64,000 nt of DNA from Sphingomonas sp. C3-2. GTDB lineage: Bacteria > Pseudomonadota > Alphaproteobacteria > Sphingomonadales > Sphingomonadaceae. The stretch spans positions 434,001 through 498,000 of the forward strand of contig NZ_CP130322.1 in assembly GCF_033025475.1 (NCBI RefSeq), in the 5' to 3' direction. The notes under the pieces are model-generated. The model was not told the origin of the DNA. It searched no databases and worked only from the letters and a program-made list of their open reading frames with translations. Position 1 is the stretch's first letter, and the number at the start of each line of letters is the position of its first letter. Of this stretch, positions 20,401 through 34,380 are shown one piece after another. The translations under genes were made by a program, and so were the position numbers.

Positions 20401-20852
20401 TCCATCGGCCGGAAACCGGGGATAAGCCCGGCCTCGACCGGGAAACCGGCAAGCAAGGTCTGGCAAAAACTGTGGATCGTCTGGATGCGCAGCCCCGAGC
20501 CGCTGGCGTCGAGCACGCGGGCAAAGAGCGTACGCGCCACCGCGCGGCTCTCTGGCCCGTGATCCTCACCCAGCGCCATCAGATCGCGCGCCAGTTCGGT
20601 ATCGGGCAGGCGCACCCAATGGGCGAGCCGTGCATGGATGCGATCCGCCATTTCGGCGGCGCCCGCCTTGGTGAAGGTGAGGCAGAGGATCGTCGACGGA
20701 TCGGCCCCGCTTAACAGCAGGCGCATCACTCGCGCGGTGAGGACGTGCGTCTTGCCGGTGCCGGCCGAGGCCGAAAGCCAGACCTGTGCCTGCGGATCGG
20801 AGGCGAGTTTCTGATTGCCGCGCAGGGCAAGGAGCGGTTTTACCTTAGCCAT
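17424..20852 (-). CDS. addA: Double-strand break repair helicase-nuclease AddA
   Basis: AddA is the UvrD-type helicase plus nuclease subunit of AddAB, which resects double-strand ends and loads RecA. About 1142 residues. Walker A SASAGTGKTHV is at residues 27-37, the motif II box is VDEAQDTNAQQW, motif VI contains LLYVALTRAEERL, and the C-terminal nuclease has GTVDRLLVRDD followed by RIVDFKTGRR, a complete PD-(D/E)xK set, then HLRQMSAYAEAL. ATG 20852 gives an 8-base overlap with addB; ATG 20861 is also possible. It is the penultimate gene of the divL-to-trxA cluster. Confidence 0.96.
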   Translation of the reverse strand: MAKVKPLLALRGNQKLASDPQAQVWLSASAGTGKTHVLTARVMRLLLSGADPSTILCLTFTKAGAAEMADRIHARLAHWVRLPDTELARDLMALGEDHGPESRAVARTLFARVLDASGSGLRIQTIHSFCQTLLAGFPVEAGLIPGFRPMEAREEKLLARTVLADMLVGAENSGDEALLQAVQALSRRLGEGGAEGFLMDCAAVPAAMANFGADIPADIRAALGVPEGDIEQAIIAACADDAFDMESVRRIGAANAEIAGVKGLAKADMIAKWRGASPELRAQMLADLLGVVRNKKGEPFALSAKMLGIEPGYEGYATRIADSVQDLLSLRSRAELAAILGAGLEAGRRFATLYAEAKRLQGSVDFNDLIRKAVELLGQSRMADWIRFKLDQATDHILVDEAQDTNAQQWAIVSALAGEFFSGDGSKADRIRTIFSVGDYKQAIFGFQGTDPINFQAAQIYFARQAESVGHDLLDLSLIESFRSTEPVLELVDALLDNLGHDALGLMSGTEPHKSAVSGPGIVTLWNPVSPDSLSGDDDEIEGDESWLSDSTRSFATRLARQIRHWLEEPLWLESKGRPLRPEDILILVRRRSELASLIVARLYAEGVPVAGIDRLRLNAPLVVRDLLSAIRFALQPEDDLNFAGLLVSPIIGWTQEQLMEQGLERPKGRSLYRHLRDTRALEGDAAEAIRQILGQADLTTPYRFLENLLSGPVDARRKLLARLGAEARDPIEELLNAALQFESDSAPSLQLFIDWFDRGDVEIVRDPSAPLDAVRVMTAHGAKGLQAPLVILADATVDPTRGPRSSVDWDIFENNEPVPVFRPRKGEAAGSLAEAVDLSTRRELQEHWRLLYVALTRAEERLIIGGALGPQAKGVPHAKSWHAAIGSAFEQLGVEAVDDGEWGGARHFLGHRPAEAPLRQPPAEKAVELPPSLPEWLHRAAPEESRPPRPLAPSSMGPDDVASPPPGPEMRRAAERGRLLHALFERLPDVARDAREGAALHWLEHSAGLSDPAERAAIAHDALAIVNDPVHADLFGADALAEAPIAAVVTGDVIAGTVDRLLVRDDIIRIVDFKTGRRVPAGVLKVPTHHLRQMSAYAEALRVIFPGRRIVAELLYTAGPALIELPEALLAAHKPGLAPTE

Positions 20853-23811
20853 CGCGGCCATACCATTCGTCGAGACGCATCAGCTGATCATAATCGCCAT
20901 AAGGCGCATATTCGGGATGGAGCTTTGCCGTGAAGGCTTCGTTGCCGGTGAGCCAGCGCTCGGCCGCCTCGATAAAATTGTGCCGCGCAATCGCGGTGAA
21001 TTCGGCAGTGACGATCTTTTGCCAGCGGCCGCTTTCATCGACCGGGCTTTGCTTGTAGCCAAAGCCCGTCTTGCCGCGTGCGAGCGACCAATATTCGAAG
21101 GCGGCGGCGCGGCCGAGAACATCCTCGAACCCAGCCTCTTCCGCGATCAGACCGAGCAAGCCGAGCTGCATCGAAAAGCCTTCGCGCACCGCGCGGCTGC
21201 TGGGCGGAGAGCCGGTCTTGTAATCGATCACGGCAAGGCTGCCATCGGCGAAGCGGTCAATCCGGTCGATCCGGCCGCCGAGTTCGACCCCGGCGATCTG
21301 GAGCGCGCCCCACGCCTCGGCCTTGACCGGGATACGGCCGATGAGGCGGCCTTCGGCGATCTCGGCGGAAATCCATTCGAGCGCCTCCATCAGGCGCGGC
21401 TGCCAGAGAACGCGCATGACCGGATGGGTATCGGCGCGTTCGAAAAGCGCGCGGGCGCGGGCTTCGAGCGCACCGGTTTTCCACCCATCTTCCTTCGCCC
21501 AGATTTCGAGCACATCGTGCGCCGCCGTGCCGCGCCAGGCGGCGGAGGGATCGGCATCGATGGGGTCGAGCGCGCGCAGGCGCAGCATCTTCTGCGCGTA
21601 AAAAGCGTAAGGATCCGCCTTCAGCCGATCGACATCAGTGACGCTGATCGTGCGTGGGCGTTTTTCGATCGGGGGCACGGGTGCGGGCTGGCCGGCTGGC
21701 GTGAACGTGCCCGGCCGGTCGATTGCGCCAATCCAGTGATCGAGCCCCGCGACCCGTTTCATCGGGCCGGCCATAGCCTCCATCCGCAGCCAGAAGCGCG
21801 AGGCGATGGTGGGCGCGCGCGCATCGCGCCGGGCGCGGGTGACGAGAACCTTCGGCCCCCCCAGCGCATTGGCCAGATCGTGCGCCGACAGGCCGATGCG
21901 GCGTTCAAGGCTGGCGAGGCCCAATTCGGAACGGACGCGCGGGGCAAGCCACGGGTCCTGCGACGGGAGCGACGGCCAGCTGCCCTCGTTGAGACCCGCC
22001 AGAACCATCAGATCGGATTGCTGGAGGCGCGCTTCGAGCAGCCCCCAGATCGAGATGCGCGGATGGCCGCCCTGGGGCGGGCGGATCGCGATTTCGTCCA
22101 TCATCCGCTTCAGCAGCGGGGCGAGATGTTCGGGCCGCGCATCGCCGGGGCCGTCCATGGCATGGGCTTCGAGATCGGCGAGCAGGTCGGCGAGCGCCCG
22201 GCCGGCGGGGCCGGACCAGATGCCGTCACCCCCCAATGCCGTCGCCGCATCGCGCAAGGCACCGAGCAGATCGCCAAGCAACCGGGCGCGGCCAAAACCG
22301 TCTGCCAGCGGATCGAGCAGCGTACGCGCCTCCGCCCAACCGGGCTGGGCGCGGCGGCGGACGGGTTGCTCGCGATCCGAACCGCCCTGCAGATAGAGCG
22401 AAACCCCCTCAAGCCCCGCAGGCGGGCGCGGGCCGCGAAGCGCGAGATCGAGATGGCGGACCTTTTCCAGCCAGCCGAGCCTTTCCTCGCCCGCCTTGAC
22501 GAGCGGGTGCTTGAGCAACGCGAGCAGCGGGACGGGTGCAAAGTTTTCGGCCGCCGCCTCGGCAATGGCGAGCAGCAGCGTGCCCGGCGCCTCGGTCGAC
22601 AGCGGACGCCCGGCGGAATCGTCCGCCTCGATCCCCCAGCGTTTGAGATGGGCGGAAACGCGGATCGCGAGCGCGCGGTCGGGCGTGACGAGCGCGGCAG
22701 TGCGCTCGGGCGTTTCCAGCGCCTCACGCAGCGCCAGAGCAATCGCCTGTGCTTCCTCGGCCGGGGTCGCCACCTCGAGCGCGCGGATGCCGCTGAGGCG
22801 CGTGACGATCCCCTCCTCGCTCCACCGGCCGGTGAAGAGCGCGGGCTTCATCGCGTTGGAAATGGCGCGGCTGCGTTCGGCGCGGGCATCGTGCCCGCCG
22901 CTCCACGCCCAGCGCTGCACCTCGGCGCGGCCGACATCCATTCGGTCGAGCAGCAGCTTCAGATGGAATTGGGGATGGGTTTCGATCGACGGACGGCGCG
23001 TGCCGGTGACCGGATCGCGGGCAAAGGGGCCGAGCGCATCCCATTCGTCGCCCGGCATCTCGTCATCAAGGCCGGGCAGGACGACGAGGCCGTTATCCAT
23101 CCACGCGACCGATTTGAGCAGACCGGCAACCGCGGGCGCGGTGGAGGTGATGCCGGCGGCCGCAACGAAGCTGGCGCCGCTGCCCTGTTCGCGCCAGCGC
23201 CGCGCGATGCGGTCGAGCAGCAGGTTGCGGCGTTCGACCATGTCGATCCGGCCGAGCCGTTCGAGTTGGGCGGGCCAGCGATCAAGGATGATGGTGAGGA
23301 GCGCGAGCGATTTCTGCCAATGCTCGGACAGTTCGGGCGCGACCTCGAGCGTCTTGAGCCGCGCGGGATCGACACGTTCGACGAGAAGCTGATCGAGCGT
23401 GCGGGCCAGCTCGGCGGCCAGGCGGATCGCCTCGGCGGCATCCACCGGCTCGCGGGCGCGCGCGCGCTCTTCCTGCACCAGCCGGGCCAGGATCATGCGG
23501 CGGCGAACGGGATCGATAGCGGGGGGCAGCGGTGCGCCCTGCCCGATCGGATCGAGCGCGCTGCCCAGCCGTTCATCGAGATCGGGATCGCCGATGGGAA
23601 CGAGCCGGGGCAGCAGTAACCCGCCCTCTGCCCGGCGGACAAAGGCCGATATGACGGCATTGCCCGCGCGGTTGTTGGGCACGAGGACGATGCCGCGCGC
23701 CAGCGCGAGCGGATCCTTGCCCCAGCGTTTGAGCAAACCTTCGGCCAGCGCATCCGCAAAGGCACGGTGCGGGGGGATAGTAAAGACGGATGGGGCCTGC
23801 GCCTCACCCAT
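20845..23811 (-). CDS. addB: Double-strand break repair protein AddB
   Basis: AddB is the second nuclease subunit and Chi-recognition candidate of AddAB. The 988-residue product has a helicase-like N-terminal region whose Walker A site is degenerate (GIVLVPNNRAGNAV), a middle region with GLNEGSWPSLPSQDPWL, and a C-terminal PD-(D/E)xK nuclease: GTAAHDVLE, GGRIDRIDRF and LAVIDYKTG. I find no cysteine anywhere in it, so the iron-sulfur cluster of Bacillus-type AddB is absent. Start ATG 23811 overlaps the upstream nucleotidyltransferase stop by 8 bases, and its own stop overlaps addA. Confidence 0.95.
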   Translation of the reverse strand: MGEAQAPSVFTIPPHRAFADALAEGLLKRWGKDPLALARGIVLVPNNRAGNAVISAFVRRAEGGLLLPRLVPIGDPDLDERLGSALDPIGQGAPLPPAIDPVRRRMILARLVQEERARAREPVDAAEAIRLAAELARTLDQLLVERVDPARLKTLEVAPELSEHWQKSLALLTIILDRWPAQLERLGRIDMVERRNLLLDRIARRWREQGSGASFVAAAGITSTAPAVAGLLKSVAWMDNGLVVLPGLDDEMPGDEWDALGPFARDPVTGTRRPSIETHPQFHLKLLLDRMDVGRAEVQRWAWSGGHDARAERSRAISNAMKPALFTGRWSEEGIVTRLSGIRALEVATPAEEAQAIALALREALETPERTAALVTPDRALAIRVSAHLKRWGIEADDSAGRPLSTEAPGTLLLAIAEAAAENFAPVPLLALLKHPLVKAGEERLGWLEKVRHLDLALRGPRPPAGLEGVSLYLQGGSDREQPVRRRAQPGWAEARTLLDPLADGFGRARLLGDLLGALRDAATALGGDGIWSGPAGRALADLLADLEAHAMDGPGDARPEHLAPLLKRMMDEIAIRPPQGGHPRISIWGLLEARLQQSDLMVLAGLNEGSWPSLPSQDPWLAPRVRSELGLASLERRIGLSAHDLANALGGPKVLVTRARRDARAPTIASRFWLRMEAMAGPMKRVAGLDHWIGAIDRPGTFTPAGQPAPVPPIEKRPRTISVTDVDRLKADPYAFYAQKMLRLRALDPIDADPSAAWRGTAAHDVLEIWAKEDGWKTGALEARARALFERADTHPVMRVLWQPRLMEALEWISAEIAEGRLIGRIPVKAEAWGALQIAGVELGGRIDRIDRFADGSLAVIDYKTGSPPSSRAVREGFSMQLGLLGLIAEEAGFEDVLGRAAAFEYWSLARGKTGFGYKQSPVDESGRWQKIVTAEFTAIARHNFIEAAERWLTGNEAFTAKLHPEYAPYGDYDQLMRLDEWYGRDG

Positions 23812-24568
23812 GGGCGAGCATCGCCTCGGTCTTCTTCACCGCGACCGGTGTGCCGACATCGAACCACAGCCCTTCATGAACAAGGCCGTAGCAACGGCCC
23901 TCGGCAATCGCGCGGTCCCAGAAGATATTGGTCGAAAAGGCGCCTTCGGGCGCATCGCGCAGCAGCCGGTGCGACACGATCTGGATGCCCGTATAGACGA
24001 AGGGCGCAACGCGCCCCGGCTTGCGGCGGCTGACGCGGCCTTCGGGATCGAGATGGAAATCGCCGGGACCGGTGTGGCAATTGGCGCGCGCCTGCGGAAC
24101 GACGAGGAGAAGCGCGTCCATTTCCTCGGCATTCCAGCGTTCGGACAAGAGTCCGATGGCGTCGACCGGGCCATCGACCCAGAGATTGTCGCTGTTGACG
24201 CAGAGAAAGGGATCATCCTCGATGAGCGGCAGCGCCTTGATGAGCCCGCCCCCGGTTTCGAGCAGCTGGCCGCGTTCGTCGGATACGAGGATTGCCATGT
24301 CCGACGCCTTGGAGCGCAGATGCGCCTCAACCGAATCCGCGAGATAATGGACGTTGACCACCGCGCGCATGATGCCCGCCGCGCGCAGCCGATCGAGCGT
24401 ATGATCGAGCAGCGCCTTGCCCGCGACGTGCACCAGCGGCTTGGGTCGGGTGACGGTGAGCGGACGCATCCGCTTGCCGAGCCCCGCCGCCATCACCATC
24501 GCGGTACGCAGCGGCGTGCCGCCCGTGGCCGGGCGGATGGCAAGCGGCTTGCGGATGGGCTTGTTCAT
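23804..24568 (-). CDS. murU: MurU-like N-acetylmuramate-1-phosphate uridylyltransferase
   Basis: A nucleotidyltransferase of the GlmU-N/RmlA fold, 254 residues. Signature AMVMAAGLGKRMRPLTVTRPKPL binds the nucleotide; SDERGQLLETGGG and CVNSDNLWVDG are the sugar- and metal-binding segments; WFDVGTP closes the domain. In Pseudomonas and Caulobacter the paired AmgK and MurU convert recovered MurNAc to UDP-MurNAc, bypassing MurA. Its ATG overlaps the stop of the amgK-like gene as ATGA, so the two are coupled, which is the main reason for choosing MurU over other sugar nucleotidyltransferases. Confidence 0.87.
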   Translation of the reverse strand: MNKPIRKPLAIRPATGGTPLRTAMVMAAGLGKRMRPLTVTRPKPLVHVAGKALLDHTLDRLRAAGIMRAVVNVHYLADSVEAHLRSKASDMAILVSDERGQLLETGGGLIKALPLIEDDPFLCVNSDNLWVDGPVDAIGLLSERWNAEEMDALLLVVPQARANCHTGPGDFHLDPEGRVSRRKPGRVAPFVYTGIQIVSHRLLRDAPEGAFSTNIFWDRAIAEGRCYGLVHEGLWFDVGTPVAVKKTEAMLAHG

Positions 24569-25566
24569 GCCGCGGCTTCCGCCGCCCATGCCGCGCCGCG
24601 CTGGTGGGCCGGGATATTGGCATCGAACCAGGCGCGCACGGGGGCAAGCGCGGGATGAGCGAGATCGCGTTCAAGATAAGCCCAGACGCGCGGGAGATAG
24701 GAGAGATAGCGCGGCTTCCCGTCGCGCTTGCACAGGCGCATGAAGATGCCGACGATCTTCGCATTGCGCTGCGCGCCGAGGAGCGCATAGGCAGTGTCGA
24801 AATCATCGCCGACACCTGCTTCCGCCTTGTAGAGCGCAAGCATTTCGGCTTCGACCGCGGCCGAGACATCGCGCCGGGCATCCTGCAGGAGCGAGACGAG
24901 ATCATAGGCCGGATGACCGGCGAGCGCGTCCTGGAAATCGAGCAGGCCGAGCCGGTCGACACCGCTCTTGCCCTCGATCAGCATGATGTTTTCGGCGTGA
25001 TAATCGCGCAGCACCGTGACCCCGCGCGCCTCCGCACCGTAAAGTCCGGCAAGCGCTTGGTCCCAGGCCGCCTCATAACCGGCGGCATCGACGTCGAGCC
25101 CGATCGCGGGGCAATACCATTCGGTGAGCAGCCCCGCCTCGCGCTGATATTGCGCGCGATCATAGGGCGGCACGTCCATGGCCGGATGGCGGTGAAGCCG
25201 CGCGAGCAGGCGCACGGCATCGGCATAGATCGGGCCTTCCACCTCGGGCGCGGCATCGATCGCTTCGCGCACGCGGTCATCACCGAAATCCTCGAGCAGG
25301 ACGAGGCCGTTTTCGAGATCGGTGGCGAGGATCGCGGGCGCGGCAAAGCCAAGCCCGCTCAAATGCTCGGCGATGTGAATGAAGGGGCGCGGATCTTCAT
25401 GCGGCGGCGGCGCATCCATGAGCACCGCGCGCCGGCCGGGTGCGACCACGCGGAAATAGCGGCGGAACGAGGCGTCGCCCGCGAGAGGAAGGATTTCGGC
25501 CCCTTCCCAGCCATGCGCGGCGAGGAAAGCGGGGGCGGATGCGGGCGGAATCATTTCGGTGGCCAT
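24565..25566 (-). CDS. amgK: AmgK-like N-acetylmuramate/N-acetylglucosamine anomeric kinase
   Basis: Aminoglycoside-phosphotransferase-fold kinase, 333 residues. GDASFRRYFRV is the nucleotide-binding loop, LVLLEDFGDD follows the hinge, VLRDYHAENIML is the catalytic loop with its Asp, and GLLDFQDALAGHPAYDLVSLLQDARRD holds the metal-binding DFQD box. AmgK phosphorylates MurNAc at the anomeric position. ATG 25566, after GGGAGG, overlaps tsaE by 16 bases; ATG 25554 would give an ATGA overlap and is also possible. murU is the next gene, so the pair forms a peptidoglycan recycling branch. Confidence 0.88.
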   Translation of the reverse strand: MATEMIPPASAPAFLAAHGWEGAEILPLAGDASFRRYFRVVAPGRRAVLMDAPPPHEDPRPFIHIAEHLSGLGFAAPAILATDLENGLVLLEDFGDDRVREAIDAAPEVEGPIYADAVRLLARLHRHPAMDVPPYDRAQYQREAGLLTEWYCPAIGLDVDAAGYEAAWDQALAGLYGAEARGVTVLRDYHAENIMLIEGKSGVDRLGLLDFQDALAGHPAYDLVSLLQDARRDVSAAVEAEMLALYKAEAGVGDDFDTAYALLGAQRNAKIVGIFMRLCKRDGKPRYLSYLPRVWAYLERDLAHPALAPVRAWFDANIPAHQRGAAWAAEAAA

Positions 25567-25997
25567 CGGCCCTCCCAAGACGGCGGTACGGTTGCTGTCA
25601 AGGCGCGTGCGCCGTCTGCGGTGGGCTGAAGGCTGAGCCGCAGCGCATCGGGCCAGAGCGCATCGCCCAGACGTTCGGGCCATTCGATCAGCAGCACGCT
25701 ATCATACCGCATGTCATCGAGCCCGAGTTCCTGCGCATCCTCGGGATCGTCGAGCCGGTAAAGATCGACATGCGCCACGGGAATGCGTACTTCGGGGACG
25801 TCATAGGGCTGGACGATCGCGAAGCTGGGGCTCGGGGCTTCCTCGGCAAGGCCAAGCGCGGACAACAGGCCGCGCGCCAGCGTCGTCTTGCCCATGCCCA
25901 GATCACCCGACAGCGCGATCACGTCGCCCGGCCGCACACAGGCCGCAAGCGCGGCACCGATCGCCAGCGTCGCGGCTTCATTGGCAAGCCGGATCAT
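25551..25997 (-). CDS. tsaE: tRNA threonylcarbamoyladenosine biosynthesis ATPase TsaE
   Basis: TsaE is the small ATPase that recycles the TsaBD complex making t6A at position 37 of ANN-decoding tRNAs, including the tRNA-Asn in this window. The 148-residue product has Walker A SGDLGMGKTTLARG, PSPSFAIVQPY, VAHVDLYRLDDPED, and LLIEWPERLG, all family landmarks. Its start overlaps the divL-like stop as ATGA. MtaB at 56991-58244 acts on the t6A that TsaE helps make. Confidence 0.95.
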   Translation of the reverse strand: MIRLANEAATLAIGAALAACVRPGDVIALSGDLGMGKTTLARGLLSALGLAEEAPSPSFAIVQPYDVPEVRIPVAHVDLYRLDDPEDAQELGLDDMRYDSVLLIEWPERLGDALWPDALRLSLQPTADGARALTATVPPSWEGRWPPK

Positions 25998-28342
25998 CGC
26001 GGAATTTCCATCGTCAGTACGGTCCCTTCCCCCGGTTCCGAATAGAGTGTGAGCGAGCCGCCATGCGCCTCCGCATATTGGCGCGCAAGGGGCAAGCCGA
26101 GGCCGAAGGCATCATCGCCGTCCGGTGCGCGGTCGGCGCGGCTGAAGCGATCAAAGGCATGAGCCTGCTGATCCGCGTTCATCCCCGCGCCATCATCGGA
26201 CACGACGATCCGCGCCGCCGCCCCATCGCCGCTGCCATGGAGGAGGATACGGCCGTTTTCGGGCGTCATCGCGATGGCGTTGCGGATCATGTGCGCGACG
26301 CTGCGCCGCAGCCGCCGCGCATCGCCCGACACCTGCCCCACCGACGGATCGAGATCGAGCGCGAACGTGATTCCCTTGGCAGTCATCGCCCCCTTCTGCT
26401 CGGCCGCGATTTCCGAGGCGATGCTGTGCAGATCGACCGGTTCATGCTCCATCGGAACGCCCCCCGCCCCGCCCTGGGTAAGATCGAGCACATCGTCGAT
26501 CAACCCGCTCAGCCGTGTGACGGAATCGATGATGGCGCCGACATAATCACGCGCGGTATCGGCAAGCGGACCCGCATAGCCCTGTTGCAGCATTTCCGCG
26601 AAGCCCCCGATCGAGGTGAGCGGGGTGCGCAGTTCATAGCTCATATTGGCGACGAAGGCGGTCTTGAGCTTGTCGGCATCCTCAAGCGCCTCTGCACGGT
26701 CGCGCAGCGCCTGTTCGATGCGACGGCTGTCCGAAATGTCGAGCATAGTGAAGAGCGCGTTGCCATCGGGCAGCGGGACGGCGGCAAATTCATAATGATG
26801 CCCGTTGCGCAGCGCCACGCGTCCGCTGCGATGCTGGCGTTCGTTGGTGGCGACGCGGACCAGTTCGCGGATCAGCCGGCCACGTTCGGGATTGGCGAGC
26901 TGACCACCCATGATTTCGACCAGCGCATCGATGCGCGGATGGGCGGTGAGAATTTTTTCCTCCAGCCCCCAGATTTCGCGGAAGCGATCGTTCCAGAGGT
27001 TCAAGCGCCCGTCGCCGGCAAACACGGCAATCGCCTCGAACAGATTGTTGAACGTGGCGGTGCGGACGCGCAGCAGCGTATCGCGCGCGCTTTCGAGCTT
27101 GAGCTGCTCGGTGCGGTCCTCGAACACGATGAACAGGCCGCCATCGGGCGACGGCTGGGCCACGACACGCAGATGCGCGCCGCCGGGCAGCAGCCAGCTT
27201 TCCTCGGCTGCGGCCTCGCCCGAGAGGAACCAGCCCCGCCGTTCCTGCTTCCAGCCGGGGAAGTCGCGGACCTCTGGCACGCGCCCCGCCTCGCGCATGC
27301 GTTCGAGAACCCGGTCGAATTCAGGACGATCGGCAAGCCATTCGGGCTTCATGCCGAAGATGCGCTGGAAGGGCTGGTTGCAGAAGATGAGCGAGCGATC
27401 CGCGCTGAACTGAGCGACGCCCGCGGACAGGCGATCGAACATGTTTCGTTCGGCAGCAACGAGCCGGTTGAGCGCGGTGCGGAGCTGTTCGGTTTCCTCG
27501 ATATCGATCGCGAAACCCGCAACGCCCGCTTCGCCGATGGGCACGTCGACGACACGCATCATCCGGCGTTCACCGCCGATCGTGGCGGGCACGGTCCGCT
27601 GCATCACCTCATCCGCCTCGCGAGCAGCCGCGGCCATGGCAAAGGGGGTGCGCCCGCCGCTGGCCTCGACCAGTTCGAGCCCGCGTTCGATGACATCGGC
27701 GGCGTCGCGCCCCTCGACGGCCTTCACATAGGCGCTGTTGACGAGCGCCAGCCGCAGATCGGCCCCGCGATGCCACATCGGAAAGGGCGACGCTTCAATC
27801 AGCCCGGCAAGCGCGCCGAAGGATTTGGTGAGGCGCCCGACCTCATCCCCCAGACGCCCGATTTCGAGCTGGCTTTCGGTAGCGTCGAAGAACCAGAGGA
27901 TGACCCCGCCGGGCGCGGACAGCACGGGCCCGGCTGGCGTGCCCCGAATGATGAGCGTGCGGGCACCGTCCTGCGTGCGGACGGCGCGGGAGAAGCGGCC
28001 GCCCGATTTTTGCGCGGCGGCGATATCTTCCGCAAGGCCTGCGCCGTCGCTTTCGAGCAGGCCGGAATCGATCCCCGCCAGCTCGCCCAAATAATTGGGC
28101 ATGCGCGCGACGCCGAGCCAATCGGCCAGCCGCGCGGGCGCATCGATCCGGCCATCGGGACGGACAAGCATGGGAATGGCAGGGGCGGCTTCGAGCAGTT
28201 CCTCAAGCCGGACGACATCGCGTTCGACCCGCGCGGCGCGGCGCCGGAAACCGAGCCCGGCATAGAGCGCCCAGCCGGCAAGCATCAGCCACAGCGCGAG
28301 CACCACACCGACCACCAGCGCGATCACCGTGCTTTCGCTCAT
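25994..28342 (-). CDS. divL: DivL-like PAS sensor pseudokinase with Tyr in place of the phospho-accepting His
   Basis: The 782-residue protein has one N-terminal membrane segment (about 5-30), several PAS-type modules (about 45-540), a dimerisation helix and a C-terminal ATPase domain with VSDDGAGM and GLGLPLAR. The H box reads VANMSYELRTPLTS: the usual histidine is Tyr569 (codon 26636-26638). This is the hallmark of Caulobacter DivL, a 769-residue membrane PAS protein that binds phosphorylated DivK and tunes CckA-CtrA. Topology, length and the downstream tsaE-amgK-murU-addBA order agree with that assignment. Orthology and role are inferred; other Tyr-type kinases cannot be excluded. Its stop overlaps the tsaE ATG. 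Confidence 0.82.
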   Translation of the reverse strand: MSESTVIALVVGVVLALWLMLAGWALYAGLGFRRRAARVERDVVRLEELLEAAPAIPMLVRPDGRIDAPARLADWLGVARMPNYLGELAGIDSGLLESDGAGLAEDIAAAQKSGGRFSRAVRTQDGARTLIIRGTPAGPVLSAPGGVILWFFDATESQLEIGRLGDEVGRLTKSFGALAGLIEASPFPMWHRGADLRLALVNSAYVKAVEGRDAADVIERGLELVEASGGRTPFAMAAAAREADEVMQRTVPATIGGERRMMRVVDVPIGEAGVAGFAIDIEETEQLRTALNRLVAAERNMFDRLSAGVAQFSADRSLIFCNQPFQRIFGMKPEWLADRPEFDRVLERMREAGRVPEVRDFPGWKQERRGWFLSGEAAAEESWLLPGGAHLRVVAQPSPDGGLFIVFEDRTEQLKLESARDTLLRVRTATFNNLFEAIAVFAGDGRLNLWNDRFREIWGLEEKILTAHPRIDALVEIMGGQLANPERGRLIRELVRVATNERQHRSGRVALRNGHHYEFAAVPLPDGNALFTMLDISDSRRIEQALRDRAEALEDADKLKTAFVANMSYELRTPLTSIGGFAEMLQQGYAGPLADTARDYVGAIIDSVTRLSGLIDDVLDLTQGGAGGVPMEHEPVDLHSIASEIAAEQKGAMTAKGITFALDLDPSVGQVSGDARRLRRSVAHMIRNAIAMTPENGRILLHGSGDGAAARIVVSDDGAGMNADQQAHAFDRFSRADRAPDGDDAFGLGLPLARQYAEAHGGSLTLYSEPGEGTVLTMEIPR

Positions 28343-28440
28343 CCAATAGTCCGTCGTGGATCAGGCCGATGCATGTTCCAAGTCCTTAGACGAACGCCGG
28401 GGCGGAGCAAGCCTGTCGGCCCACCCCGCCCCCGGCCTTC

Positions 28441-31400
28441 CTATTCCCAATAATAGGGCTTGCGGCGGCGGGTGCCGGTCACTTCCTCGTTCAATGTCGC
28501 CGCGTCGTAAAGACGCCCGCCAAGCATGACCTTCGAGACCTTGTCCGAATTGCGGATATCCTGCGTCGGATCGGCATCGAGAATAACCAGATCGGCGAGC
28601 TTGCCGGGTTCAAGCGATCCGATCTGGCTATCATAACCAAGCGAGCGCGCCGCCTCGATCGTGCCCGCGCGCAGTGCCTGAACCGGGCTCATCCCGCCGC
28701 GCACAAAGGACCAGAGTTCCCAATGCGCGGCGATGCCGGGTTCCTGCCCATGGCCACCGATGGCGACGGGTACGCCGCGTTCGGCCAGCTTCTTTGCCTC
28801 GCGCGCATTATCGTCATCGACATAATCGCTCTCGGGCGCCTTGACGCGGCGGACATTGGCCGCTTGCAGGATGGTTGCCGGTTCATGCTTCTGGAGCAGC
28901 GGATGCGTCCAGACATCGGTCGCCTGCCGCCAATAGGGATCGCCCGCCGGGCCGCCATAGGTGACGACCAAGGTCGGCGTGTAGCCCGTCGTCGACCCGG
29001 CGAAATAATCGATGACGTCCTTGTAGAGGACGGCCTGCGGGAAATTATGCTCAAGCGTGGTGTTGCCATCGGCGATATGGCCGACATCCATCGCGAAGAG
29101 CGACCCGCCCTCGGCCACGACGCGCATCCCCTCCTCGCGCGCGGCGGCCACGATCTGCTGGCGCTGTTCGCGGCGGGGCTGGTTATAGTTCTTCACGCTG
29201 TGCGCGCCCTGCGCCTTGAGGCGGCGCAGATGCGCCCGGGCATCGTCCAGACTATCGATCTGCGCATAGACGCCGGGCGCCTTGGCGCCGTAGATCACCT
29301 CCCCGGTCGAAAAGGTGCGCGGCCCGGTGACGAGCCCGGCGCGCTGCATTTCGGAGAAAGGAAAGACGGTTGCCGCGCTGCTCGACGGATCGTGCGTCGT
29401 CGTGATGCCGAGCGCGAGATTGACCATCGCGGACCAGTTCTGCTCGGGCGTGAAATCGTCGACGCCGTAAGCCCCGTGCGCGTGCGCATCGACCAGCCCG
29501 GGCATGATCGTCTTGCCGGTGACGTCGAGCGTCTTCGCGCCTGCCGGGATTGCGACGCTACCCTGCGGGCCGACCGCGACGATGCGTTCGCGGTCGATGA
29601 CGATGGTGCCATTGTCGATGACGCCGCCCTTCTCATCCCCCATGGTGACGACGCGCGCGCCGGTGAGCGCGACGATGCCCGTGGGTCGATCCGCCGGAAC
29701 TGTCATCGCCAGCGAAACGCCTGCGCGCGGCGGATCGAACTTGGCCGGTTTACCGTCTGCGGCGGGCGGCGCCGATGCGAAAACGGCATCGGTGGCGACG
29801 CTATAGAGAGTGGGGCCGAGGCTGTAGTGCAGCCGCGTGCCGTTGCCGCTCCAGCTGAGATAATCGGCACCGTCACGGCTGACGCGGGCGACCGGCATCG
29901 CGCTGGCCTTTGCCCCCGTGCCCAGTTCCTGCGTGCCGGGGAGCAGCGGCATCAGATAGGCTTCGTAATTCTCGCGGAAGGCGAAATATTCGCCGCTGGG
30001 CGCCACGTCATAGGCGGTGACGAGTTCGCCCGACGCATGGACGCGCCGTGCCTCGCCGTTCAAATCGGTGCTGACCAGTCGCTTCTTGCCATCAGCGGAA
30101 TCGACCATGAACAGCCGGTCGTTCGATGCGCCAAACTGCGGATCGCTACCACTGCGCGCGACGCGCACCGGCGCGCCGCCCGAGGCCGCCACGCGAAAGA
30201 TGCCCTGCCCGCCCGGCGCGTTGGGCGCGACGAGATAGCCGCCCTCGCGCGCTTCGAACACGATGGTGCGGCCATCGGGCGAGAAGCGCGGGCGCGCATA
30301 GTGCCCCGACACGTTGGTGACCGCGCGGGCCGAACCGCCCGAGGGCGTGATCGTCCGGATCGTCCCCCGCCCCTTGTCGGTCCAGCCGACATAGACGATC
30401 TGCTTTCCATCGCGCGACCATGCGGGATAGGCCTCTCGCTCGGCATCGGAGCGCGTGAGGCGACGGGCAGCGCCGCCCGACAGATCCTTGATCCAGATCC
30501 GACCCAATGTTTCGAACGCGACCTGCCGGCCATCGGGTGACACCGAGGCATAGCGCGGCATCGAAGTAGTGACGTTTTCCGACCAGATGGTGACCGGTGG
30601 GCGCGGTGCCTCCACCGCGCCGCGGCTGTCCTTCACATGGAAGGGAATGTCGCGCACCGCGCCGCTCGCCAGATCGATCCGGTTGATCTTGCCGCCTGCC
30701 CAGAAGACGAGCGTGCGCGAATCCGGGGTCCAGCCCATGTTCGGATAGACGCCGTGGACCGCCCAGGTTTCCTGTACGTCCTGATCGAGCGTGTCATGGA
30801 TCCGGCGTTCCTCGCCGGTCTGCAAATTCTTGACGTAAAGTTTCGAGCGGGTCTGTTCGCGGCGGACAAAGGCGAGCCATTTGCCGTCGGGCGATGGCTG
30901 AGGTCGCACCGCGCCGCCGGGGCCGGACACGATCGTCTCCACCTCCCCCGTTTCAAGATCATAGCGCTCGATCGCGAACAGCTGGTTGTTCGAATCCTGC
31001 GCATATTCGAAGATCGGGCCGGGCGTGGTGTTGCGCGCGAAATAGACATGCTTGCCACCGGGCGCATAGACCGGTTCGCCCAGTTCCTTTTGATGTTGTT
31101 CATTGGGTTTCTTGACCAGCGGCACGCCGCCACCGCCCGAGACGTGATAGACCCAGACCTCACCCGTGCCGAGCGAACGGCCGGTGGTGAAATGCTTGCG
31201 CGCGACGATGAAGCGGCCATCGGGGCTCCAGCTCGGCTGGGTAAGGAGACGGAAATCCTCCTTGGTCACCTGCCGCTTGTCGGAGCCATCACGGTCCATC
31301 ACCCAGATATTCTCGCCGCCGCCGCGATCGGAGGTGAAGGCGATCCGCCCACCATCGGGCGAGAAACGCGGTTGCATGTCAAGCGAGAGCCCCTCGGCAA

Positions 31401-31653
31401 TGCGCCGGGGCGTGCCGCCCGCAATATCCATGGTGTAGATATCACCCAGCAGATCGAAGGCGATTGTCCGGCCATCGGGGCTGACATCGACATTCATCCA
31501 TGTGCCTTCGGTCACGTCGATCGGAACCTGACGGATGGTCGCGCCCTGAGGCGAGTCGACATTCCATTTGTCGGCAGCGCCCCCCATGCCATCGGCGGCC
31601 ACAGCCGGGGCCGCCAGCGCAAGCGCCAGCACGGTCGTCAGTTGAAAACGCAT
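28441..31653 (-). CDS. Exported beta-propeller / amidohydrolase fusion protein
   Basis: The 1070-residue product starts with a signal peptide (MRFQLTTVLALALAAPAVAA). Residues about 50-600 hold repeated SPDG-type blades (for example VSPDGRTIAFDLLGD, FSPDGGRIAFTSDRGG), a TolB/WD40-like PD40 propeller. Residues about 680-1060 form an imidazolonepropionase-like metal amidohydrolase: VTGKTIMPGLVDAHAHGAYG with the HxH pair, TLEHNFPQ, GGHGQEPG and LEPGKLADLVILDADP. It is probably periplasmic and acts on a peptide-like or cyclic amide substrate; the substrate is not known. Start is supported by GGGGAAG before ATG 31653. Confidence 0.88.
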   Translation of the reverse strand: MRFQLTTVLALALAAPAVAADGMGGAADKWNVDSPQGATIRQVPIDVTEGTWMNVDVSPDGRTIAFDLLGDIYTMDIAGGTPRRIAEGLSLDMQPRFSPDGGRIAFTSDRGGGENIWVMDRDGSDKRQVTKEDFRLLTQPSWSPDGRFIVARKHFTTGRSLGTGEVWVYHVSGGGGVPLVKKPNEQHQKELGEPVYAPGGKHVYFARNTTPGPIFEYAQDSNNQLFAIERYDLETGEVETIVSGPGGAVRPQPSPDGKWLAFVRREQTRSKLYVKNLQTGEERRIHDTLDQDVQETWAVHGVYPNMGWTPDSRTLVFWAGGKINRIDLASGAVRDIPFHVKDSRGAVEAPRPPVTIWSENVTTSMPRYASVSPDGRQVAFETLGRIWIKDLSGGAARRLTRSDAEREAYPAWSRDGKQIVYVGWTDKGRGTIRTITPSGGSARAVTNVSGHYARPRFSPDGRTIVFEAREGGYLVAPNAPGGQGIFRVAASGGAPVRVARSGSDPQFGASNDRLFMVDSADGKKRLVSTDLNGEARRVHASGELVTAYDVAPSGEYFAFRENYEAYLMPLLPGTQELGTGAKASAMPVARVSRDGADYLSWSGNGTRLHYSLGPTLYSVATDAVFASAPPAADGKPAKFDPPRAGVSLAMTVPADRPTGIVALTGARVVTMGDEKGGVIDNGTIVIDRERIVAVGPQGSVAIPAGAKTLDVTGKTIMPGLVDAHAHGAYGVDDFTPEQNWSAMVNLALGITTTHDPSSSAATVFPFSEMQRAGLVTGPRTFSTGEVIYGAKAPGVYAQIDSLDDARAHLRRLKAQGAHSVKNYNQPRREQRQQIVAAAREEGMRVVAEGGSLFAMDVGHIADGNTTLEHNFPQAVLYKDVIDYFAGSTTGYTPTLVVTYGGPAGDPYWRQATDVWTHPLLQKHEPATILQAANVRRVKAPESDYVDDDNAREAKKLAERGVPVAIGGHGQEPGIAAHWELWSFVRGGMSPVQALRAGTIEAARSLGYDSQIGSLEPGKLADLVILDADPTQDIRNSDKVSKVMLGGRLYDAATLNEEVTGTRRRKPYYWE

Positions 31654-31925
31654 TTACTTCCCCCAACCGGTTCGGGGGACTTTGCACGCATATGGCGTAA
31701 AGCCCCCGTCAAACCGGCAAACTCACAAGGAAAAGCAGGCGACGCAAGCCTTGTTTGCACGAATGTCAAAATGCCCTGCTGTGACAGCTCCGCAACACAG
31801 CTTTGGTAAAAAACAGGCCGTGCTCCATTGCCATTGCACGCGCTCGTTTCTGGCAGGAAATTCACGGAGCCACTGCCGCAAAAGGGGATTGGTTGTGACC
31901 GCGCTCCCCGGGAGATGACCGGCCG

Positions 31926-32897
31926 ATGAACGCACCGCTTTCCATGGGAGAACGCGCCAGCGCGCTGGCGGCCCATGGCATGGTACGCGATGCCCTGAAG
32001 CTGCTTGAACGCGGCGCCCTGGCGGGGGACCCAGATGCCTGTTTCACCATCGGATTATGGTGCCTGGCGGGCACCCATGTGCACCGCGACCTGACGGCGG
32101 CGCGCAACTGGTTCGGCAAGGCGGGGCAATATGGCCATCCGCTGGGCCGCACGGTGCACACCGCGTTCCTGGCCAATGGCACGGGTGGCGCCCGGCAATG
32201 GGCGCAGGCGATCGGCCAGTTGCGTGTTGATGCCCGCCAAGACAGCGCCGCCGCCCGCCAATTGGCGCTGATCGGGCAAATGGTGCTGGATGCAGACGGA
32301 GGCCCTGCCCCGATCAGTGCTCCCCACGCATATTCGCAAAACCCGGAAATCAGCCTGTTCAAGGGTTTTCTGAGCCGCGCCGAATGCGATTATCTGATCG
32401 ACACGGCAGACCCGCTATTTCGCCCGGCCGATATCGTCGATCCGGGATCGGGGCGGGCGATGCGCAATCCGATCCGCACATCCGACAGCGCGGCTTTTCC
32501 GCTCGCCAATGAAAATCCGGCAATCCATGCGATCAACCGCCGCATTGCCGCCGCCAGCGCAACCGATGTGGAGCAAGGCGAACCGCTCCAGATCCTGCGC
32601 TATGCGCCAGGCCAGCAATATCGATCGCATCTCGATGCGCTGCCCGGAACCGGCAACCAGCGGTTGTTCACCTTCCTCATCTATCTCAACACCGATTATG
32701 AGGGCGGGCAGACGAATTTCGTCGAGGCGGGGCTGCGCATTCGTGGCCAGCGCGGCGATGCCATCTTGTTTCGCAACGCGCTGCCCGACGGCACGCCCGA
32801 TCCGATGACACGCCATGCCGGACTGCCCGTGCAGCGCGGGACCAAATATCTGGCGTCGCGCTGGATACGCCAGCGATCGCTGAGCCTGACGCGCTGA
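31926..32897 (+). CDS. Sel1-repeat / prolyl 4-hydroxylase-like 2OG-Fe(II) oxygenase
   Basis: The 323-residue protein has an N-terminal helical part (about 1-125) with Sel1-like repeats (GDPDACFTIGLWCLAGTHVHRD, AARNWFGKAGQYGHPLG) and a C-terminal prolyl-4-hydroxylase catalytic domain. The iron ligands are visible as His235 and Asp237 (YRSHLDALPG) and His297 (TRHAGLPV), with Lys307 to hold 2-oxoglutarate. It should hydroxylate a protein side chain, perhaps one recruited by the Sel1 part; no target is evident. It is divergent from the amidohydrolase and converges on ahcY. Confidence 0.88.
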   Translation: MNAPLSMGERASALAAHGMVRDALKLLERGALAGDPDACFTIGLWCLAGTHVHRDLTAARNWFGKAGQYGHPLGRTVHTAFLANGTGGARQWAQAIGQLRVDARQDSAAARQLALIGQMVLDADGGPAPISAPHAYSQNPEISLFKGFLSRAECDYLIDTADPLFRPADIVDPGSGRAMRNPIRTSDSAAFPLANENPAIHAINRRIAAASATDVEQGEPLQILRYAPGQQYRSHLDALPGTGNQRLFTFLIYLNTDYEGGQTNFVEAGLRIRGQRGDAILFRNALPDGTPDPMTRHAGLPVQRGTKYLASRWIRQRSLSLTR

Positions 32898-32970: not shown

Positions 32971-34380
32971 TCAGTAGCGGTAGTGATCGGGCTTGAACGG
33001 CCCTTCCACCGGAACGCCGATATAATCGGCCTGCTTCTGATTGAGCTTGGTGAGCTTCACGCCCAGCTTTTCGAGGTGGAGCATCGCGACCTTTTCGTCG
33101 AGATGCTTGGGCAGAACATAGACTTCGTTCTGGTAGTTCCCCGAGTTCGCCCAGAGTTCGATCTGCGCGATCGTCTGGTTGGTGAACGACGACGACATCA
33201 CGAAGCTGGGATGACCGGTAGCGTTGCCAAGGTTCACGAGGCGGCCCTTCGAGAGGACGATGATCTTCTTGCCGTCGGAGAATTCGACTTCGTCGACCTG
33301 CGGCTTGATCTCGGTCCACTTGTAGTTCGAGAGCGCGGCGATCTGGATCTCGCTGTCGAAGTGGCCGATGTTGCACACGATCGCCATGTTCTTCATCGCC
33401 TTCATGTGATCGGCGGTGATGACGTCAGCATTGCCGGTGGCGGTGACGAAGATGTCGGCGCGCGTCACGGCGTCTTCCATCGTCACGACTTCATAGCCTT
33501 CCATCGCGGCCTGAAGCGCGCAAATGGGATCGATTTCGGTGACGAGCACGCGTGCGCCGCCATTGCGGAGCGACGCGGCCGAGCCCTTGCCCACATCGCC
33601 GAAGCCAGCGACGCAGGCGACCTTGCCGGCGAGCATGACGTCGGTTGCGCGGCGGATCGCGTCGACGAGCGATTCCTTGCAGCCATAGAGGTTGTCGAAC
33701 TTCGACTTGGTGACCGAGTCATTGACGTTGATCGCCGGGAAGGGAAGCTGGCCCTTCTTGGCAAGCGCATAGAGACGGTGCACACCGGTGGTGGTTTCTT
33801 CCGAAACGCCCTTGATGGTTTTCACGGTCTCGGTGAGGTAGCCGGGCTTTGCCGCGACGAACGCCTTGAGCGCGCGCTGGAATTCGACTTCTTCCTCATT
33901 TTCCGGCTCGGGCAGCGCTTCGCCTGCCTCGATGCGCGCGCCCCAGAGCGCGAACATGGTGGCATCGCCGCCATCGTCGAGGATCATGTTGCAGGTTTTG
34001 TCACCCCAATCGAAGATGCGGCCGACATAATCCCAATATTCCGCAAGGCTTTCGCCCTTCACCGCGAACACCGGAACGCCCGATGCCGCGATGGCGGCGG
34101 CTGCGTGATCCTGCGTCGAATAGATGTTGCAGGTTGCCCAGCGCACATCTGCACCAAGCGCGGTGAGCGTTTCGATGAGAACTGCAGTCTGAATGGTCAT
34201 GTGCAGCGAACCGGTGATGCGCGCGCCCTTGAGCGGCTGTGCGGCACCATATTCGCTGCGCAGCGCCATCAGGCCGGGCATTTCGGTTTCGGCGATGTCG
34301 ATTTCCTTGCGGCCGAAGGCGGCAAGGCCGATGTCGCTGATGACATAATCATTGGTGTCTACGACAGGTGCGGTGGCCAC
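32971..34380 (-). CDS. ahcY: Adenosylhomocysteinase
   Basis: AhcY splits S-adenosylhomocysteine into homocysteine and adenosine, relieving product inhibition of methyltransferases. The 469-residue product has the long bacterial form. [20 protein letters not shown] and the QDHAAAAI region lie in the substrate domain; [20 protein letters not shown] and the NAD-binding [20 protein letters not shown] follow; it ends in the conserved PFKPDHYRY that completes the neighbouring subunit's NAD site. The start is GTG 34380, eight bases after AGGAG. A perfect palindrome about 90 bases upstream probably regulates it. Confidence 0.98.

Follow-up and report, generated by a model that had tools for sequence, protein, structure and literature searches.

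The window, a 64,000-nucleotide stretch of DNA from Sphingomonas sp. C3-2, contains an orthologue of divL (Table 1), the product of which, judged from its sequence, is a genuine relative of Caulobacter DivL with a tyrosine, Tyr569, at the site of the former active histidine. This membrane-anchored pseudokinase probably acts as a receptor of phosphorylated DivK (DivK~P) that tunes the hybrid kinase CckA. Tyr569 lies within TAFVANMSYELRTPLTSIGG in the translation of the minus-strand frame, also given within TAFVANMSYELRTPLTSI, and occupies the position at which an active sensor histidine kinase has its phospho-accepting His; both the translation and the alignment confirm this replacement in the H box, which an earlier note on this DNA had reported. 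As that note had warned, the generic label 'sensor histidine kinase' would be misleading for this gene.

Table 1. Features of the divL locus and its neighbours, with positions in the window.
Feature	Positions	Strand	Basis or remark
divL orthologue, 782-residue PAS–HisKA–HATPase pseudokinase	25994..28342	-	ORF, ATG start
Single N-terminal membrane helix, about residues 5–24	28271..28330	-	Hydropathy; helix in model
PAS-like module 1, about residues 55–153	27884..28180	-	Model strands and helices by eye; no Pfam best stretch
PAS-like module 2, about residues 189–280	27503..27778	-	Model, by eye
PAS module 3, about residues 308–409	27116..27421	-	Model; PAS_8/PAS match 299–347
PAS module 4, about residues 437–535	26738..27034	-	Model; PAS_7 match 432–544
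DHp domain, about residues 556–625	26468..26677	-	Pfam, model; carries R572, T576, G580, F581 and Y600
H box AFVANMSYELRTPLTSI, residues 562–578	26609..26659	-	Tyr569 codon at 26636–26638
CA (ATPase-like) domain, about residues 634–781	26000..26443	-	Pfam, alignment; ATP-site residues canonical
tsaE	25551..25997	-	Start codon overlaps divL stop (ATGA)
APH-family phosphotransferase, amgK-like, conserved neighbour	24565..25683	-	Locus comparison
Nucleotidyltransferase, murU-like, conserved neighbour	23804..24589	-	Locus comparison
PD-(D/E)XK nuclease, addB-like, conserved neighbour	20845..23811	-	Locus comparison
ahcY (S-adenosylhomocysteine hydrolase), usual upstream neighbour of divL	32971..34380	-	4.6 kb from divL here

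HisKA (PF00512, residues 560–626, 66 bits) and HATPase_c (PF02518, residues 673–781, 73 bits) were matched above the Pfam cut-offs, as were PAS domains, with PAS_7 matched in two stretches. Of the 19-residue hydropathy windows, the one with the highest value begins at residue 5 and none that starts beyond residue 40 exceeds 1.6, giving one N-terminal membrane helix. The AlphaFold model (21-sequence alignment, mean pLDDT of 83) comprises this helix, four PAS-like modules, a DHp hairpin and the CA domain, with a pTM of 0.32 that leaves the packing of the domains unsure. Hydropathy, Pfam and the model thereby agree on the plan of one membrane helix and stacked PAS modules described in the earlier note. 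In the alignment, the N, G1, F and G2 boxes of window DivL are canonical (N688, D716, G718, G720, F733, G747 and G749). By analogy with Caulobacter, from which the docking positions are taken (PMC4211667; published work is cited here by accession, for the accessible part of its text), we infer that the DHp domain would be the docking module for DivK. A 796-residue open frame (window positions 26063–28453, plus strand) runs antisense across nearly all of divL and is probably a by-product of the high G+C content.

A sequence search of the PDB returned Caulobacter DivL (entry 4q20) as the top match of window DivL, with an E-value of 6.1e-44, followed by 7z8n, titled GacS kinase (1e-27), and Tyr569 aligns with Tyr550 of 4q20. 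Foldseek matched 4q20 at 35% identity with a TM-score of 0.70 by target length, ranking it eighth by E-value, below longer multi-domain entries. Sensor kinases of the PnpS, PhoR, MtrB and WalK types, in which the acceptor is His, have the overall HisKA–HATPase architecture in common with window DivL and are among the top NCBIfam matches, the 25 scores listed all being far below the curated cut-offs. A relative at E <= 1e-60 is encoded in 54 of the 59 genomes of Sphingomonadales, own genome counted, and full-length relatives were found across the order and the class; the nine named relatives from the related-loci search are all sphingomonads or MAGs, with Caulobacter absent among them. Like the DivL of Caulobacter crescentus (4q20; PMC4211667), window DivL has Tyr for His, PAS domains before DHp–CA and retained histidine kinase motifs, the docking positions are the same and the same partners are encoded. 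It differs in two docking residues (Phe in place of Tyr562, Tyr in place of His579), in a DHp loop with two extra residues, in its location in an ahcY–tsaE–amgK–murU–addB cluster and in belonging to a lineage where CtrA is dispensable. The alignment, the order-wide orthologues, the shared neighbours and the partner genes support the DivL-type pseudokinase reading of the earlier note, and the substitution is, as stated there, the one found in Caulobacter DivL, the closest PDB relative.

Most of the long loci retrieved from across Sphingomonadales have the gene order ahcY–divL–tsaE–amgK–murU–addB, with one gene missing or an early end in some; the names amgK, murU and addB are those that we take these neighbours to bear. 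Because the start codon of tsaE overlaps the stop codon of divL, the two genes are probably co-transcribed. A paralogous or transferred gene was considered and ruled out, as gene order and presence track the order. In the window, ahcY and divL are separated (28441–32897) by a 2OG-Fe(II) oxygenase gene and a gene for a 1070-residue amidohydrolase with β-propeller repeats, and the amidohydrolase gene also adjoins divL in some near relatives (loci L039 and L047).

The partners of DivL are present in the same genome: CtrA (NCBIfam CtrA, 419 bits against a cut-off of 350), an orthologue of DivK (top PDB match DivK, 1m5t, E = 1.8e-38), ChpT (PF10090, 121 bits against a cut-off of 22.9) and CckA, which in the PDB best matches 5idj and an entry titled CckA, 5idm; the NCBIfam models of CckA take first and second place for this candidate but score below their cut-offs, with the frame cut by the end of the locus. 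The search for cckA, chpT, ctrA, divK and pleC proposed in the earlier note thus yielded the first four, while neither PleC nor DivJ was identified among the 17 of 18 HisKA (PF00512) places of the genome that were read. His occupies the site in 16 of these places and Tyr only in window DivL, and the aligned residue is His in all 26 further kinase loci, from the own genome and related ones, that could be aligned (27 were given; L005 failed to align and was left out). One of the kinases is odd: locus L008 (own genome C1:387068-387256, minus strand; L008:997-3036:-) keeps His in its H box, VHELRTPLNAILGFAEMI, has no HATPase_c match in Pfam and has unrecognizable N and G boxes, its CA domain being degenerate. 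We take the H box HELRTPLNAI to be of the PleC/DivJ type, which among the HisKA places read is borne by L008 only, and this protein is a possible partner of DivK, PleC/DivJ-like but degenerate.

The constancy of the tyrosine was examined by reading DivL from each matching genome of two surveys, 165 genomes of Sphingomonadales. Three of these DivLs have lost the DHp domain (G017, G072 and G147), and of the 162 that bear it 160 have Tyr at the site, one has Asp (G053), one has Ser (G058) and none has His. The earlier note had proposed a check for His in close relatives and for fixation of Tyr in the clade: no relative read within the order has His, and fixation holds apart from the Asp and the Ser. 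Chance occurrence of Tyr or a sequencing error is ruled out by its presence in 160 of the 162. Tyr is found in 155 of the 156 DHp-bearing DivLs from genomes with DivK and in five of the six from genomes without it. In Caulobacter, mutation of R553, T557, Y562 or H579 weakens the binding of DivK~P (PMC4211667). Three of the corresponding docking residues are near-invariant among the 162 sequences: R572 (R553) is Arg in all, F581 (Y562) is Phe in 159 and Tyr in three, and Y600 (H579) is Tyr in 161 and Gln in one. T576 (T557) is Thr in 140 and Asn in 22, and R572 and T576 of window DivL are identical to Caulobacter. In one genome (G032, locus L251) divL is split into two overlapping frames, matching query residues 11–274 and 255–781, which is a frameshift or an assembly error.

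Losses of DivL and DivK are associated. Among 149 genomes of Sphingomonadaceae, each at least 95% complete, DivK is missing in 18 at a threshold of E <= 1e-30, with G033 and G133 counted as missing on account of weak matches (2.4e-16 and 2.1e-20). The DHp domain of DivL is absent in 15 of these 18 versus one of 130 DivK-bearing genomes, G139 having been dropped from the table because its contig ends within divL; of all 131 DivK-bearing genomes of the family, 129 have a DHp-bearing DivL. The 18 comprise 12 without DivL at E <= 1e-60, three with DivL lacking DHp and three with a full, Tyr-bearing DivL and no detectable DivK (G021, G083 and G084). All 12 genomes without DivL retain ahcY and tsaE in their usual order, and nothing between the two genes matches divL (E <= 1e-4), the gap measuring about 10 to 110 bases in G136, G033, G125 and G133 and 0.6 to 6 kb, with other genes inside as judged by eye, in G007, G065, G090, G099, G161, G156, G024 and G130. 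In G072 and G147 the deletion removes DHp and spares the preceding helix and a relic CA domain, and in G017 it removes DHp plus the linker. The profile searches scored six candidates per genome in the family and four in the class, so that a DivL that had both moved and diverged strongly could have escaped them; for G007, G024 and G033, in which every first-look candidate was scored, the best matches were confined to the kinase part (E = 1.4e-21, 1.5e-25 and 2.5e-22). CtrA is divergent in these same three genomes (67, 61 and 55% identity), CtrA was not found at 1e-50 in G017, and ChpT, sought in ten genomes, was not found in G024 and G033.

The Fisher p-value for the co-loss is 9.7e-17 with kinship ignored. 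A five-gene tree of 50 rows, of which 46 were scored, requires at least seven changes for DivK and at least six for the DivL DHp domain, and independent pairs gave on average 4.0 changing the same way, 0.1 the opposite way and 1.9 without difference, which is not significant (p = 0.125) in a tree-aware test of little power. DivL appears usually to be dismantled in sphingomonads without DivK, with kinship limiting the support. The short DivL of Rhodobacterales (PMC2877005, PMC9430884) is alike in that the kinase-like part was lost along with DivK, as in these sphingomonad relatives. It differs in that its whole kinase-like part is gone, whereas in G017, G072 and G147 DHp is excised and a relic CA domain stays; window DivL is full length. 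Two side observations concern the emptied site: in G158 (L264, 9139-9369) a divL relic of the last 76 residues stands between ahcY and tsaE with DivK still encoded, and in L255, L256, L257 and L265 (G065, G090, G099 and G161) the gap is filled by pairs resembling PIN/VapC toxin–antitoxin systems by eye. With other genes there in other genomes, the gap left by divL seems to take up inserts.

In the wider class, 212 alphaproteobacterial genomes were sampled, with the state of DivL assigned from which part of the profile it matched and DivK called at E <= 1e-22, some calls being weak (G258, G338 and G356). DivL with DHp was found in 116 (101 with DivK), including G285, split over two frames, and G348, cut by a contig end; DivL without DHp in eight, one with DivK (G322); and no DivL in 88, nine with DivK, this last group including G202, G210, G263, G342 and G359, the E <= 1e-70 matches of which cover the kinase part only or are unlisted. 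The 120 DivLs outside the family were represented by 66 rows that are not a random draw (26 best-scoring and 40 chosen, about half of the latter for low score); these have Tyr in 50, His in four, Phe in two, Leu in two and one each of Val, Ser, Thr, Arg, Gly, Lys, Gln and no DHp. This count led us to abandon the idea of a Tyr fixed throughout DivL. Among the 65 that bear DHp, Tyr is present in 49 of 58 with DivK versus one of seven without (p = 3.7e-4), in a sample confounded by small, fast-evolving genomes among those lacking DivK. His at the site was seen, outside the order, in G246 (L316), G302 (L360), G214 (L324) and G328 (L328); all ATP motifs are kept in G246 and G302 but not in G214 and G328, and the tree groups G246, G302 and G328 with the Tyr-bearing G180 in a single supported set and places G214 elsewhere. 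Since ahcY and tsaE were not seen near the gene in G246, paralogy is possible there, and the His-bearing homologues represent either reversal or paralogues.

As a DivK~P receptor, window DivL would offer the DHp helix pair as the docking platform; Tyr569 would take away the phosphate acceptor, so that docking would be read as a change of shape with no phosphate passed on, and the PAS modules would convey the docking state to CckA, from which phosphate would pass via ChpT to CtrA. With DivK~P bound, CckA would tend towards its phosphatase mode. The contacts with DivK and CckA, the direction of control and the absence of kinase activity are carried over from Caulobacter, and we infer that they would apply here. 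Loss of CtrA does not harm the growth of Sphingomonas melonis (PMC8116508), and the outcome in sphingomonads is therefore probably tuning of motility and the cell cycle rather than viability.

An active sensor kinase that uses its intact G boxes to phosphorylate Tyr569 or another residue is very unlikely. Window DivL has every ATP-site residue that was examined, 4q20 carries the title 'tyrosine kinase', and the set of Asn, Asp and two GxG pairs is kept in 134 of the 160 Tyr-bearing DivLs of the order; however, it is incomplete in the other 26 with Tyr kept, so that the claim of the earlier note that the G boxes are retained holds for window DivL but not for the whole family. A FastTree tree built from the PAS part shows at least 16 changes of the ATP set, two of the site residue, one of Y600 and none of R572. 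The aromatic residue of the ATP lid is found in only 87 of the 160 versus 25 of 26 ordinary kinase loci (p = 1.7e-5), a soft figure given that the lid is the worst-aligned part, and Caulobacter DivL is without kinase activity, its CA domain being dispensable (PMC4211667). A loss of the ATP set significantly above that in ordinary kinases was not obtained (134 of 160 versus 25 of 26, Fisher p = 0.13); what may be a relaxed constraint on the ATP site is supported only by the lid aromatic and by how often the set changes on the tree. On average, the most frequent residue at a position makes up a share of 0.92 in the H box, compared with 0.70 across DHp, 0.51 across CA and 0.40 across the lid, and the variability of CA relative to DHp would suit a decaying kinase without present function, yet this is scarcely credible in view of the intact frame, the gene order common across the order and the Tyr and docking residues held over 162 sequences.

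It is unlikely that this DivL-like pseudokinase docks a response regulator other than, or besides, DivK. Such docking would account for the retention of Tyr, R572, F581 and Y600 in the DivK-less G021, G083 and G084, and likewise in G025 (completeness 67%) and G035 (DivK not found at E 1e-18), and further DivL inputs have been proposed for Hyphomonas (PMC7200025); against it, DivK is encoded in the own genome and in 129 of the 132 family genomes with a DHp-bearing DivL. The pairing of DivL and DivK is not absolute, as G021, G083 and G084, with DivL and no DivK, and G158, with DivK and only a divL relic, break the pattern. Further points against the preferred reading are that neither DivJ nor PleC was identified among the HisKA places read, that five of the six DHp-bearing DivLs from DivK-less genomes of the order retain Tyr, that the independent pairs give no significant coupling, and that in Hyphomonas DivK is dispensable and DivL essential (PMC7200025), so that DivL need not act solely via DivK. 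The preferred reading is still that of a DivK~P receptor.

DivL has been reported to lack kinase activity, with Tyr550 conserved in alphaproteobacterial DivL except for an Ala in Magnetospirillum, and alphaproteobacteria without DivK are often also without the DHp–CA part of DivL (PMC4211667); wherever DivL has no kinase domain DivK has been reported absent too, and DivJ–PleC–DivK to be degenerate or lost in Sphingomonadales (PMC2877005), while in Rhodobacterales DivK loss was followed by a degenerate and then a short DivL (PMC9430884). Given these reports, neither the pseudokinase nor the coupling of DivL to DivK is new. No publication describing the excision of DHp or the deletion of divL from sphingomonads was found in a search made mostly at the level of titles and abstracts, with few subscription papers covered, and the four His-bearing rows exceed the one exception stated in the accessible text of PMC4211667. 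We tentatively propose, at a chance just short of even, that selection on sphingomonad DivL is split, the protein being purely a receptor of DivK~P, with the Tyr and the docking face frozen and the ATP pocket free to decay; that upon loss of DivK the DHp domain was cut out, leaving a relic CA, or the gene was deleted from its conserved site, several times; that class-wide Tyr was also given up in DHp-bearing DivLs without DivK, though five of the six such cases in Sphingomonadales keep it; and that the small His-bearing set with intact ATP motifs, outside this order, may be a natural reversal to a working kinase. Since the Y550H variant of Caulobacter DivL remains able to bind DivK~P but is harmful to the cell (PMC4211667), it is a puzzle why Tyr is otherwise kept, and the His-bearing relatives, if they are real orthologues, would test this. 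Full DivL with an intact ATP site, full DivL with a broken one, DivL with DHp excised and deletion of the gene form a natural series within one family, which lets the part of the pseudokinase needed for signalling be tested without engineered mutants.
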